The notes beneath the pieces are model-generated. The model had not been told where the DNA came from, did no database searches, and saw nothing but the letters and a program-made list of their open reading frames with translations. Below are positions 6,501-32,082 of a stretch of 42,569 nucleotides of DNA, piece after piece. Source of the stretch: Pseudomonadota bacterium (lineage in GTDB: Bacteria > Pseudomonadota > Gammaproteobacteria > Ga0077536); contig JAQCEL010000008.1 of assembly GCA_027618655.1 (NCBI GenBank), forward strand, positions 1-42,569, given 5' to 3'. The position numbers and the translations under genes were made by a program. Position 1 is the first letter of the stretch; every line of letters begins with the position of its first letter.

Positions 6501-6541
6501 TAGCAGCGCAGTAGATTGTTCCTAAGTCCGACAGGCTGCTA
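6501..6541 (+). repeat. 41-bp dispersed repeat, copy A
   Basis: A 41-nt sequence with short inverted ends (TAGCAGC at 6501 and GCTGCTA at 6535). It recurs in opposite orientation at 42514-42554 with 39 of 41 positions identical. It sits just upstream of the selenoprotein gene and its last base begins the AAGGAG ribosome site. The other copy also lies upstream of a gene in the same relative orientation. Function unknown; a small dispersed chromosomal repeat is the safest description. Confidence 0.75.
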
Positions 6542-6552
6542 AGGAGAGCCCA

Positions 6553-6771
6553 TTGAGAATCCGCATTGAATATTGCATGCAATGAAACTACGAACCTAAA
6601 GCCCTCCGTGCGAGGGACAGGTTAGAGTCGCTAGGTGTTAAGGACATCGAATTAGTCCCCGGATCAGGTGGCGTTTTCGAAATAGAAGTTGACGGAACGT
6701 TGCGTTATTCGAAGAAATCGCTCGGTCGTTTTCCGAATGACGATGAGCTTGATGCCTTGATTGCGAACTAA
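6553..6771 (+). CDS. SelW-like selenoprotein (Rdx family), in-frame UGA = Sec
   Basis: A 72-aa thioredoxin-fold protein of the Rdx (SelW/SelT/SelH) family, hidden because codon 11 is TGA (6583-6585). The N-terminus reads RIRIEYCMQ-U-NYEPKAL, so the redox motif is Cys8-x-x-Sec11, exactly where SelW proteins carry CxxU or CxxC. After the UGA the frame continues with family features: IELVPGSGGVFEIEVDG, then LRYSKKSLGRFPND and a short C-terminal helix, ending at TAA. A perfect AAGGAG (6541-6546) lies 6 nt before the TTG start. A SECIS-like hairpin follows the UGA. The length matches bacterial SelW-like proteins (about 70-100 aa). The role is probably thiol-based redox; the partner is unknown. Sec synthesis genes (selA, selB, selC, selD) are not in this window and must be elsewhere. 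Confidence 0.9.
6593..6623 (+). promoter_or_regulatory. SECIS-like hairpin for Sec insertion
   Basis: The stem-loop begins 7 nt after the UGA codon. The lower stem is AACCT (6593-6597) with AGGTT (6619-6623). An internal loop AAAG/AC follows, then the upper stem CCCTC (6602-6606) with GAGGG (6612-6616) and the apical loop CGTGC. All ten base pairs are Watson-Crick. The UGA-to-loop distance is 21 nt and the loop has G in its second position. Both agree with the usual description of bacterial SECIS elements, which lie inside the coding region and bind SelB. Confidence 0.82.
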
Positions 6772-6951: not shown

Positions 6952-7799
6952 TCAGCACGATCCTTGATTTAAATGATCGCGCAATGTTGTACCGCTATAT
7001 TCCTTCCGATGGACGCCGCGTTTTTGCAGGATAGGAACAACATGATCGACAAACTCGTTAAAACTATCTGGCATCGTGGTCGGGGTGATGTTGAATCCAT
7101 CACCACCTGTCTCTTCTAGAATAGATTCCATCTGGTCCGCAATTTGTTCTGGTGTGCCGACGATTTGCGGGCAGCCGATCGCCGCGCCATAAATTTTCCC
7201 GACTTCGCGCAAAGTGAGTTTCTCGCGACCGAGATCGCCAGAGCGTTTATCCGCGATTACCGCATCGGGCTCCCAGCTATTTCCTAATTTATGGCAAACC
7301 TCCCTGTATTCTTCGGCGCGTTCATAACGGAGATCCGGTGGGATTATTTCATCCAAGCCCATATTCTCCGCTTCGCCGACATAAAATGAAGTCACGATAT
7401 TCCAACCGATCCGACCGCGGGTGAGGTGATCTAAGGTGCTTAACTTGCGGACTGCCAAATACGGCGGGTAGTAGGTTGCGGACAATGTCACCGCGAATCC
7501 AATTCGTTTAGTGACGGCCGCCATCATGGGTACGACTAAGATCGGGTCATGAATCGGAAATTGAATTGCGCGCGCGAGTGATTCGTCAATTCGATCTTTG
7601 TAGTTACCATAGGCCGCGAGTTGATCGGCAAAAAAATGGCATCAAACTTACCGCGTTCTAAGGTGCGGGCCATGCCTTGCCAAATATCGGGTTGGGCGAA
7701 GGACTCGGCGATCTTATTATCTGGATGGGTCCACGAACCGACGGAGTGGTTCATGGGGCTGTGAATCACGAAGCCGTTTAAGTGCATCATTTTCTTCAC
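6952..7799 (-). pseudogene. Decayed LLM-class flavin monooxygenase (NtaA/SnaA/DszA type)
   Basis: Remnant of a luciferase-like flavin-dependent monooxygenase of the NtaA/SnaA/DszA group (normally about 440-460 aa). The N-terminus starts at GTG 7799 behind AGAGGA and reads KKMMHLNGFVIHSP to RGKFDAIFLP. The frame then shifts at a run of seven T on the coding strand (7630-7636); one more T would restore ADQLAAYGNYKDRIDESLA. The second frame continues through GRIGWNIVTSFYVGEAENMG and SWEPDAVIADKRSGD, then jumps straight to the C-terminal LTLREVGKIYG and QIVGTPEQIADQ. About 150-200 middle residues are therefore missing. The internal deletion makes a functional enzyme unlikely even if the frameshift were a sequencing error. 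Confidence 0.85.
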
Positions 7800-7917
7800 A
7801 AATAGGGATCCTCTTGTAACGACCGAAGCCGATTCACTGGGTCTCGCCCACTGTAACGCCGGAAAGATCTGGGCGCTAGCCGACGGTTCGGCGCGGCGCG
7901 CCCTGAGATACCTCTTA

Positions 7918-7956
7918 GGGTCTGATCTGCTTGTGATGGCGCGCAAGATCAGACCC
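7918..7956. repeat. 10-bp perfect inverted repeat
   Basis: GGGTCTGATC (7918-7927) and GATCAGACCC (7947-7956) form a perfect 10-bp stem with a 19-nt spacer. It lies between the acyl-CoA ligase gene and the decayed monooxygenase gene, so it may be the ligase terminator on the minus strand or a small palindromic repeat scar. No T-tract is present. Confidence 0.6.
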
Positions 7957-7970
7957 AAGTCAATTACCGA

Positions 7971-30291: not shown

Positions 30292-30798
30292 ATGAAAACG
30301 AATAAACGGATTAAGACTTTAATTTCCGGAGCAGTGGCTATTGGAGCCATCTTAATGATGTCCGCGACTCCAGCGCTTGCCGGTGGTAACAATGGTCATC
30401 GTGGCAAACATTACGATGGTGGCGATCGCGACCATCGTGGTCACCACGACAACCGTCGCCATCAACGACACTATCATCAACGACACTATAGGGATCACGG
30501 ACCGCGCTATTATTCGGATCATAGAGTCCACTTCAACTATGTGCCCGTGCCAGTTGTTCGCCAAACGGTAATCTATGAGCAACCCGTACAAGCTTATTAT
30601 TCGGCGCCAAGTTCCTACGGAACTGGCTACCGAACTGGCTACCGAACGAGCACGGTTAACGGGGGAAATCTTGTCGGTGGCGCGATTGATGGTTACTTGG
30701 GTTCAACTGTTGGACATGGTTCCACTCGGTTGGCAGCGACTGCGGCTGGTGCAGTGATTGGCTATTCACTTGGTGGCCAAGTGGGTTCCCGCTATTAA
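30292..30798 (+). CDS. Exported His-rich protein with C-terminal glycine zipper
   Basis: A 168-aa exported protein. The start at ATG 30292 follows AAAGGAG. A signal peptide with a hydrophobic core (LISGAVAIGAILMMSA, cleavage after ALA) is followed by a His/Arg/Asp-rich stretch, then a Tyr/Pro-rich linker with a short tandem GYRT repeat. The C-terminal NLVGGAIDGYLGSTVG and AATAAGAVIGYSLGGQVG form a glycine-zipper 2TM-like region, as in Rickettsia 17-kDa-antigen/SlyB-type envelope proteins. It probably sits at the outer membrane or periplasm; metal binding by the His-rich part is possible. Confidence 0.82.
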   Translation: MKTNKRIKTLISGAVAIGAILMMSATPALAGGNNGHRGKHYDGGDRDHRGHHDNRRHQRHYHQRHYRDHGPRYYSDHRVHFNYVPVPVVRQTVIYEQPVQAYYSAPSSYGTGYRTGYRTSTVNGGNLVGGAIDGYLGSTVGHGSTRLAATAAGAVIGYSLGGQVGSRY

Positions 30799-30846
30799 AT
30801 AAGCAATAGATAAACGTGCGGAATTACGTCTTTCGCACGCTTGCTG

Positions 30847-30872
30847 CCCGCCCATTTGGGCGGGTTTTTTTT
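30847..30872 (+). terminator. Strong Rho-independent terminator
   Basis: The perfect 7-bp stem CCCGCCC/GGGCGGG with loop ATTT is followed by eight T (30865-30872). It ends the glycine-zipper protein gene. The group II intron begins 2 nt after the T-run, so the terminator is also the intron's insertion target. Confidence 0.92.
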
Positions 30873-30913
30873 GGTGCGCCCGGCAGGGCGCACTTACCCG
30901 GTTTCCGGCGGAT

Positions 30914-31435
30914 AGGCTCAAGCTCACGGTCAATGCGGCCAAGAGCGCGGTGGCGCCGCCGTGGACAAGGAAGTTTCTGGGCTACAGTTTGAGCTGGCAC
31001 AAGGTCCCGAAACTGAAGATTGGGCCAACCAGTGTGAAACGACTGGAAGACAAAATCCGCGAAGTGCTCCAAGGCGCGGGAGGGCGCAGCCTGAGGAAGG
31101 CTATCACCGAACTCAACCCGATCCTTCGTGGCTGGATGGCGTATTTCAAGCTGACCGAGACCAAGCGGGCCCTGGAAGAGTTGGACGGCTGGATCAGGCA
31201 CAAGCTACGCTGCATTTTGTGGCGCCAGTGGAAACGCCCCTATACTCGCGCAAAGAACCTGATGCAGGCAGGACTAACGGAAGAACGGGCGTTTCGCTCG
31301 GCCTTCAATCAACGTGGGCCGTGGTGCAATAGTGGCGCGAGCCACATGAACCAGGCATTCCCGAAGTCCTTCTTTGATCGATTAGGCCTGGTGTCGCTGC
31401 TCGATATAATGCGACGACTCCAGTGTGTTCAATGA
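30914..31435 (+). pseudogene. Group II intron reverse transcriptase/maturase, C-terminal fragment
   Basis: The open frame runs from about 30914 (RLKLTVNAAKSAVAPPW) to the stop at 31435; a GTG at 30950 is the first start codon. It contains the end of the RT palm (TRKFLGYSLSW), the maturase X domain (LNPILRGWMAYFKLTETKRA and LDGWIRHKLRCILWRQWKRP) and the C-terminal GPWCNSGASHMNQAFPKSFF. The catalytic YADD region and everything before it are missing, so the fragment cannot reverse-transcribe. Confidence 0.85.
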
Positions 31436-31436
31436 A

Positions 31437-31506
31437 CAGCCGGATGCGGAACCGCACGTCCGGTGGTGCGGGAGGACGGCGGGGGTAACCCCGCCTCCTA
31501 CCCGAT
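31437..31506 (+). ncRNA. Group II intron domains V and VI
   Basis: Domain V: AGC (31438-31440) begins the stem, whose GCCGGA pairs with TCCGGT (31459-31464). A two-base CG bulge and an upper TGCG/CGCA stem capped by GAAC follow. Domain VI: GGCGGGG/CCCCGCC with loop GTAA, an AGGA/TCCT stem, then an unpaired A at 31500 (the probable branch point) and a GGG/CCC base. The intron ends CCCGAT about 6 nt after that A. Confidence 0.78.
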
Positions 31507-31605
31507 CCATTTTCATCATTTCCCGAGGTCGAAGGTTTCTGCGGTTCGAGACCAACGACTGATCTACAATCCCGGGCAAGCTTTAGTTGCCGACAGTTGA
31601 ACACC

Positions 31606-32082
31606 ATGGCCGAACCCAGGAATTATTTTTTCGACGATGTGGTTATTGGCGAAGGCCAATCCTACGGACCCTATGAAGTGACTGCTGAAGAGCTGATCCC
31701 ATTTAACCGCAAGTGGGATCCGCTGCCGATGCATTTAGATGATCAAGCTGCCCGCGAGAAAGGCCATCGGGGTTTGACGGCATCCGGGCAATATACTTTG
31801 TGCGTAAAGCAACTTTTTATTAACCAAACTCCATGGCGTGATTGCGTGATCGGCGCATTAGGCTTTGATGAAGTGCGCTTCCCGCATCCGGTTTATGTCG
31901 GAGATCAATTGTCAGCGACGATCGAATGCATCGACAAGCGAGCGTCACAGAGCAAATTGGATCGCGGGATCGTCAAATTCGTTGTTCGCGTGTTCAACCA
32001 GAACGACGAGACGGTGTTAAGTTATATCGATACGGTCATGTTTAAGCGCCTCACCGAAAAACGGATCGGAGACGATCCATGA
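31606..32082 (+). CDS. MaoC-like hydratase/dehydratase
   Basis: Hot-dog-fold protein of 158 aa (ATG 31606). The hydratase-2 type active-site segment is visible as FNRKWDPLPMHLDDQAAREKG, with Asp and His in the expected DPxPxH arrangement. It should hydrate an enoyl-CoA to an (R)-3-hydroxyacyl-CoA, or catalyse a related dehydration. It overlaps the next SDR gene by 4 nt (ATGA), so translation is coupled. First gene of the MaoC-SDR-GST operon. The 99 bases between the intron end and the start show nothing clear. Confidence 0.88.
   Translation: MAEPRNYFFDDVVIGEGQSYGPYEVTAEELIPFNRKWDPLPMHLDDQAAREKGHRGLTASGQYTLCVKQLFINQTPWRDCVIGALGFDEVRFPHPVYVGDQLSATIECIDKRASQSKLDRGIVKFVVRVFNQNDETVLSYIDTVMFKRLTEKRIGDDP

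Follow-up and report, generated by a model that had tools for sequence, protein, structure and literature searches.

A predicted SelW-like selenoprotein with an in-frame UGA codon and a SECIS hairpin in a family of uncultured Gammaproteobacteria

Introduction

SelW-like proteins carrying a CxxU motif form an established and abundant family that has been known in bacteria for some 20 years. The bacterial members described from the Sargasso Sea and GOS (PMC1088965, PMC2398784) are small Rdx proteins with an N-terminal CxxU, and the SECIS element of their genes lies directly after the UGA and has a small apical loop containing a G. The function of SelW-like proteins has been called unclear; a redox role has been inferred from the CxxU motif, and an interaction with glutathione has been noted (PMC1088965). 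In bacteria SelB binds the SECIS element and brings Sec-tRNA(Sec) to the UGA (PMC1794560). The bacterial SECIS model comprises an apical loop of 3–9 nt on an upper stem of 4–16 bp, with a G at one of the first two positions of the loop, the loop lying 16–37 nt after the UGA, and a minimum free energy (MFE) ≤ −7.5 kcal/mol (PMC13188914).

The gene described here differs in nothing essential from the Sargasso Sea and GOS sequences, its own family having for the most part a strongly conserved loop and stem of the form CTC-CGTGY-GAG. What is new is a further lineage of SelW-like selenoproteins, an uncultured gammaproteobacterial family. The SelW-related Rdx proteins of the Cys type (2fa8, which is Atu0228, 2ojl, 3dex, 2obk and 2p0g) share the predicted fold (TMq 0.83–0.90) at 28–39% identity. 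However, the Cys-type relatives whose genes were inspected have CxxC and lack a TGA, whereas the protein studied here has CxxU and its gene a SECIS element. Mouse SelW (2npb) and MIEN1 (2ljk) are also members of the Rdx family with the same fold, but are distant in sequence (26–37% identity in the fold alignment), and eukaryotic SECIS elements are found in the 3′ untranslated region rather than directly after the UGA.

Results

The gene and its product

We have analyzed a stretch of 42,569 nt of DNA, which we call the window. The selW-like gene occupies positions 6553–6771 of its forward strand. It begins with a TTG codon at 6553, which aligns with the ATG of its relatives, and is preceded by a Shine-Dalgarno sequence AAGGAG (6541–6546, forward strand) placed 6 nt upstream of the start. 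The putative selenocysteine codon TGA is codon 11 (6583–6585), the last codon of a redox motif Cys8-Met-Gln-Sec11 (TGC ATG CAA TGA; 6574–6585, forward strand), and beyond it the frame remains open as far as the TAA at 6769–6771. The initial annotation had proposed this arrangement of ribosome binding site, TTG start, TGA and uninterrupted downstream coding, together with SelW-type residues in the product, and all of it is borne out. A list of open reading frames of 80 aa or more, made with translation table 11, contains nothing in this stretch. We also looked for a promoter-like site at the gene, and found none.

With the TGA written as Sec, the product is MRIRIEYCMQUNYEPKALRARDRLESLGVKDIELVPGSGGVFEIEVDGTLRYSKKSLGRFPNDDELDALIAN (72 residues). 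It is recognized by the Pfam model Rdx (PF10262) with E = 2.7e-17 (63.2 bits, cut-off 22.6) and by TIGR02174 CXXU_selWTH (52.2 bits, cut-off 34.2). The NCBIfam model giving the highest score, NF041051 SelTWH_Campy '(seleno)protein', reached 86.5 bits; as this is 1.5 bits below the cut-off of 88 bits, the product falls formally outside that equivalog. A phmmer search of the PDB returned the SelW-related chains 2fa8, 2ojl and 3dex together with mouse SelW 2npb, the best match being the Selenoprotein W-related 2fa8 (2.2e-10). The AlphaFold model has a mean pLDDT of 92.9 and the thioredoxin-like fold of the Rdx family, and when it was compared with known structures using Foldseek the best 23 matches were all SelW-related, Rdx or SelW/MIEN1 structures, with TMq up to 0.90 (to 2fa8). 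C8-M-Q-U11 follows the first strand, where the CxxC or CxxU of these proteins is found, and the columns of Cys8 and Cys/Sec11 are invariant in the alignment.

A hairpin follows the UGA

The sequence after the TGA can form a two-part hairpin. A lower stem, AACCT (6593–6597) paired with AGGTT (6619–6623), begins 7 nt past the TGA, and an apical stem CCCTC (6602–6606)/GAGGG (6612–6616) closes the loop CGTGC (6607–6611). The apical hairpin (6602–6616, forward strand) conforms to the rules for bacterial SECIS elements, having a 5 nt loop with G at its second position, a 5 bp stem, and a distance of 21 nt between UGA and loop. The calculated MFE is −13.8 kcal/mol for 48 nt.

Could the hairpin simply follow from the conservation of the peptide ALRARD, without any role of its own? 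The peptide around the hairpin is indeed well conserved. We therefore compared the sequence with trials in which the peptide was held fixed and the codons were redrawn from the codon usage of the window itself. By MFE alone the hairpin does not stand out (−13.8 kcal/mol, the mean of the trials being −9.6; P = 0.10), which would be consistent with such a by-product. Yet just 0.30% of trials produced the five apical Watson-Crick pairs (P = 0.003) and 0.009% both stems at once, and 0.13% gave a rule-obeying two-part stem of any kind with 10 pairs or more. For most of the relatives, taken individually, the corresponding P for the apical stem is ~0.005–0.011. The choice among synonymous codons is thus constrained in a way that keeps the stem. 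The rare arginine codon AGG (8 of the 236 Arg codons in the window) is found at codon 21 (6613–6615), within the 3′ arm of the stem, in 76% of near relatives.

Comparison of 26 distinct Sec sequences, in an alignment free of gaps, leads to the same view of the apical stem. It is paired in 96.2% of cells, and at three of its five pairs both sides have changed in a compensatory manner, giving 10 such cells compared with 2.2 in shuffled alignments; six sequences have a C-G to U-A change at the pair 6603/6615. Its covariation score exceeds those of all 500 shuffles and of every slid version of the stem, although the sequences are related and the shuffle figures are therefore not strict probabilities. 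RNAalifold returned the apical stem alone. More distant taxa have stems of differing sequence at the same place, for example CTTCCA-GTT-TGGAAG (L054) and GCTGTCA-GTT-TGGCAGC (L057), and a further case in L056. Only 3–4 of the apical pairs are left in one branch, whose genomes are small.

A free search for rule-obeying hairpins downstream of the UGA or Cys codon failed to distinguish the Sec homologues from those with Cys (mean −6.1 and −4.8 kcal/mol respectively), hairpins that satisfy loose rules being found after the Cys codons too. This is a further point in favor of a by-product, and because of it we relied on the tests of a stem in a fixed place and of synonymous codons. Given the results of those tests, we consider it very unlikely that the hairpin merely reflects the peptide.

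The initial annotation had described a two-part hairpin of ten pairs. All ten are present in the window at the spacing proposed (7 nt from TGA to stem and 21 nt to the loop, with G at loop position 2), but of these only the apical 5 bp are conserved. The possible lower stem (6593–6623, forward strand), while perfect here, is paired in 64.6% of cells across the family, and in most relatives it is no more frequent than coding alone would yield. We have therefore discarded the ten-pair stem as a conserved unit. On the sequences compared, compensatory evolution is seen in the apical and not the lower stem, and the conserved putative SECIS element is the 5 bp apical hairpin.

The genome contains the machinery for selenocysteine insertion

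The window is one contig (C93) of an assembly of 4.36 Mb that is 94.5% complete. The initial annotation had supposed that the organism possesses the Sec machinery, and the absence of selB or selC would have refuted its proposal of a selenoprotein. Both were found. A tRNA-Sec on another contig (C161) scored 61.8 bits and was identified by ARAGORN as tRNA-SeC with the anticodon tca (UCA), and it is adjoined by matches to selB (434.7 bits) and selA (588.5 bits) in the order selA-selB-selC. A match to selD (300.5 bits) completes the set of selA, selB, selC and selD that marks a Sec-decoding organism. The selD sequence is the C-terminal part of a fused frame of 783 aa (L018:178-2529, contig C324), the N-terminal part of which is a pyridine nucleotide-disulphide oxidoreductase domain. 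A second match to the tRNA-Sec model (contig C105, 48.3 bits) was rejected, being a tRNA-Ser according to ARAGORN.

An open frame past a TGA cannot by itself distinguish selenocysteine from an ordinary amino acid inserted through an altered code or general read-through. However, TGA terminates 7 of the 24 long open stretches of the window, the genome has all four sel genes, and the TGA falls exactly at the position of the redox Cys, with a covarying SECIS hairpin after it. The chance of an ordinary amino acid being inserted at this UGA is accordingly minimal.

The UGA and the downstream frame are conserved

We searched 36 genomes of the same order as the window organism, all belonging to one family. 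SelW-like relatives are present in 26 of these, as 27 copies, and every copy contains a single in-frame stop, which is TGA. After the UGA it is the third codon positions that vary most (identity 0.25–0.45, compared with 0.58–0.80 at positions 1 and 2), and therefore the downstream frame is translated. Related genomes without a conserved frame after the UGA would have refuted the initial annotation, but the frame is kept in them. In the GTDB species set we found 13 loci, comprising 12 Sec loci and one Cys copy (Shimia); the former are titled Gammaproteobacteria, Granulosicoccaceae, Minwuiaceae, Rhizobiales, Desulfobulbaceae, Gemmatimonadota, Melainabacteria and others. A search of 369 genomes of the class gave 47 matches outside the family, none of which has a stop; the 24 of these that were inspected have CxxC, as does the Shimia copy. 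The in-frame UGA is thus at the position of the Cys of homologues, with the frame conserved beyond it, as is the case for bacterial selenoproteins. No SelW-like relative was found in the phages searched, and matches in plasmids were all <60% identical, those with a family annotation being called 'Rdx' or 'SelT/SelW/SelH'.

An alternative is that a nonsense mutation or a sequencing error has put a TGA into what was a CxxC Rdx gene, which would then be a pseudogene or contain a wrong base. In its favor, distant relatives of the class have Cys here, and a single base separates TGA from TGC or TGT. Independent genomes have already refuted this alternative, however, and its probability is negligible: all 27 family copies and the 12 Sec loci found in the species set share the TGA, and the frame beyond it evolves as coding sequence.

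Within the family, SelB is above cut-off in 29 of the 36 genomes, in at least two others it is divided between pieces, and strong matches to tRNA-Sec (59 bits or more) are found in 32. Two genomes (G018, 100% complete, and G022, 62%) have none of the three, neither SelB over cut-off nor a strong tRNA-Sec match nor the SelW-like gene. Of the 26 carriers of the SelW-like gene, 24 have a strong tRNA-Sec match. The remaining two carriers (G012 and G029) have neither SelB over cut-off nor a strong tRNA-Sec match. Their assemblies are 81% and 87% complete, and because selA, selB and selC adjoin in the window organism, one missing contig could explain each case.

Genomic neighborhood

The gene beside the SelW gene depends on the genus. 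It is OYE-like in the genus of the window organism, and in 15 loci of other genera (L027, L022, L037 and 12 more) it is CinA-like, with MoCF_biosynth and CinA domains in L027. Several of these CinA-type loci have an amidase gene on the other side, which was tested with Pfam in L037. A conserved operon was rejected as the neighbors vary between genera, and for the same reason we deduce no functional partner.

Elsewhere in the window, a luciferase-like monooxygenase gene (6952–7958, reverse strand) seems to be split over two frames near 7530, possibly by a frameshift, a pseudogene or an assembly error. A group II intron fragment at 30803–31506 (forward strand) comprises a GIIM maturase-specific domain (9.1e-24) directly followed by the RNA domain RF00029 (41 bits), and no open reading frame of 180 aa or more is listed around it, from 30798 to 32079.

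Further candidate selenoproteins

Besides the SelW-like gene, no convincing gene with an in-frame TGA in a CxxU or UxxC motif was seen when a scan of the window was judged by eye. In the genome as a whole, 6 of 14 members of the AhpC/TSA family and 4 of 14 members of the CMD family have one in-frame TGA. The AhpC/TSA candidates have UxxC or UGC (contigs C26, C297, C100, C248, C11 and C306; L104–L109) and the AhpD/CMD candidates have CxxU (contigs C48, C49, C58 and C118; L110–L113). In all ten the TGA is found at the expected catalytic Cys, in the contexts WUPYC, WUPFC, WUGC and YUGC, or CHYU, CHLU, CPFU and CFYU. Four were confirmed by Pfam as AhpC/TSA or CMD members when Cys was written for Sec. 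Folding shows a candidate hairpin at the distance of a SECIS element in most of them; the gene on C58 lacks a clean SECIS-like hairpin when folded, and that on C118 reaches the end of its contig. A search for formate dehydrogenase in the same genome gave no match over cut-off, with no TGA in any partial match, and this enzyme was therefore rejected as the main user of Sec.

Discussion

The homology and predicted fold of the product, the conserved UGA and frame, the covarying hairpin and the presence of the Sec machinery together support the original proposal that the UGA is read as selenocysteine. The window gene almost certainly encodes a bacterial SelW-like selenoprotein, with the UGA at codon 11 read as Sec by means of SelB and the hairpin to give an Rdx product with CxxU. 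By analogy with E. coli, SelB carrying Sec-tRNA(Sec) would bind the hairpin just 3′ to the UGA, so delivering selenocysteine at codon 11 of a 72-residue thioredoxin-like protein. The CxxU would then most likely act as a selenenylsulfide/dithiol redox center connected with small thiols, glutathione for example. By analogy with the family such a thiol/selenol role in redox chemistry is likely, because the literature infers redox activity from the motif and notes the glutathione interaction.

A selenoprotein-rich organism is one with six or more selenoproteins; in one survey such organisms were mostly Deltaproteobacteria, Clostridia or Synergistetes, and 78.3% were anaerobes (PMC5029168). Including SelW there are at least 11 candidates in the genome studied here, above that number, and therefore the lineage is probably selenoprotein-rich without a recognizable formate dehydrogenase, spending its Sec on thiol and peroxide proteins of the SelW-, AhpC/TSA- and AhpD/CMD-like kinds. 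Annotation may have cut short or overlooked some of the additional genes with in-frame TGA. In the window, an apparently empty gap of 480 nt contains a real gene that is absent from plain ORF calling, and with it is added a lineage whose SelW-like copies, as far as found, are all of the Sec type.
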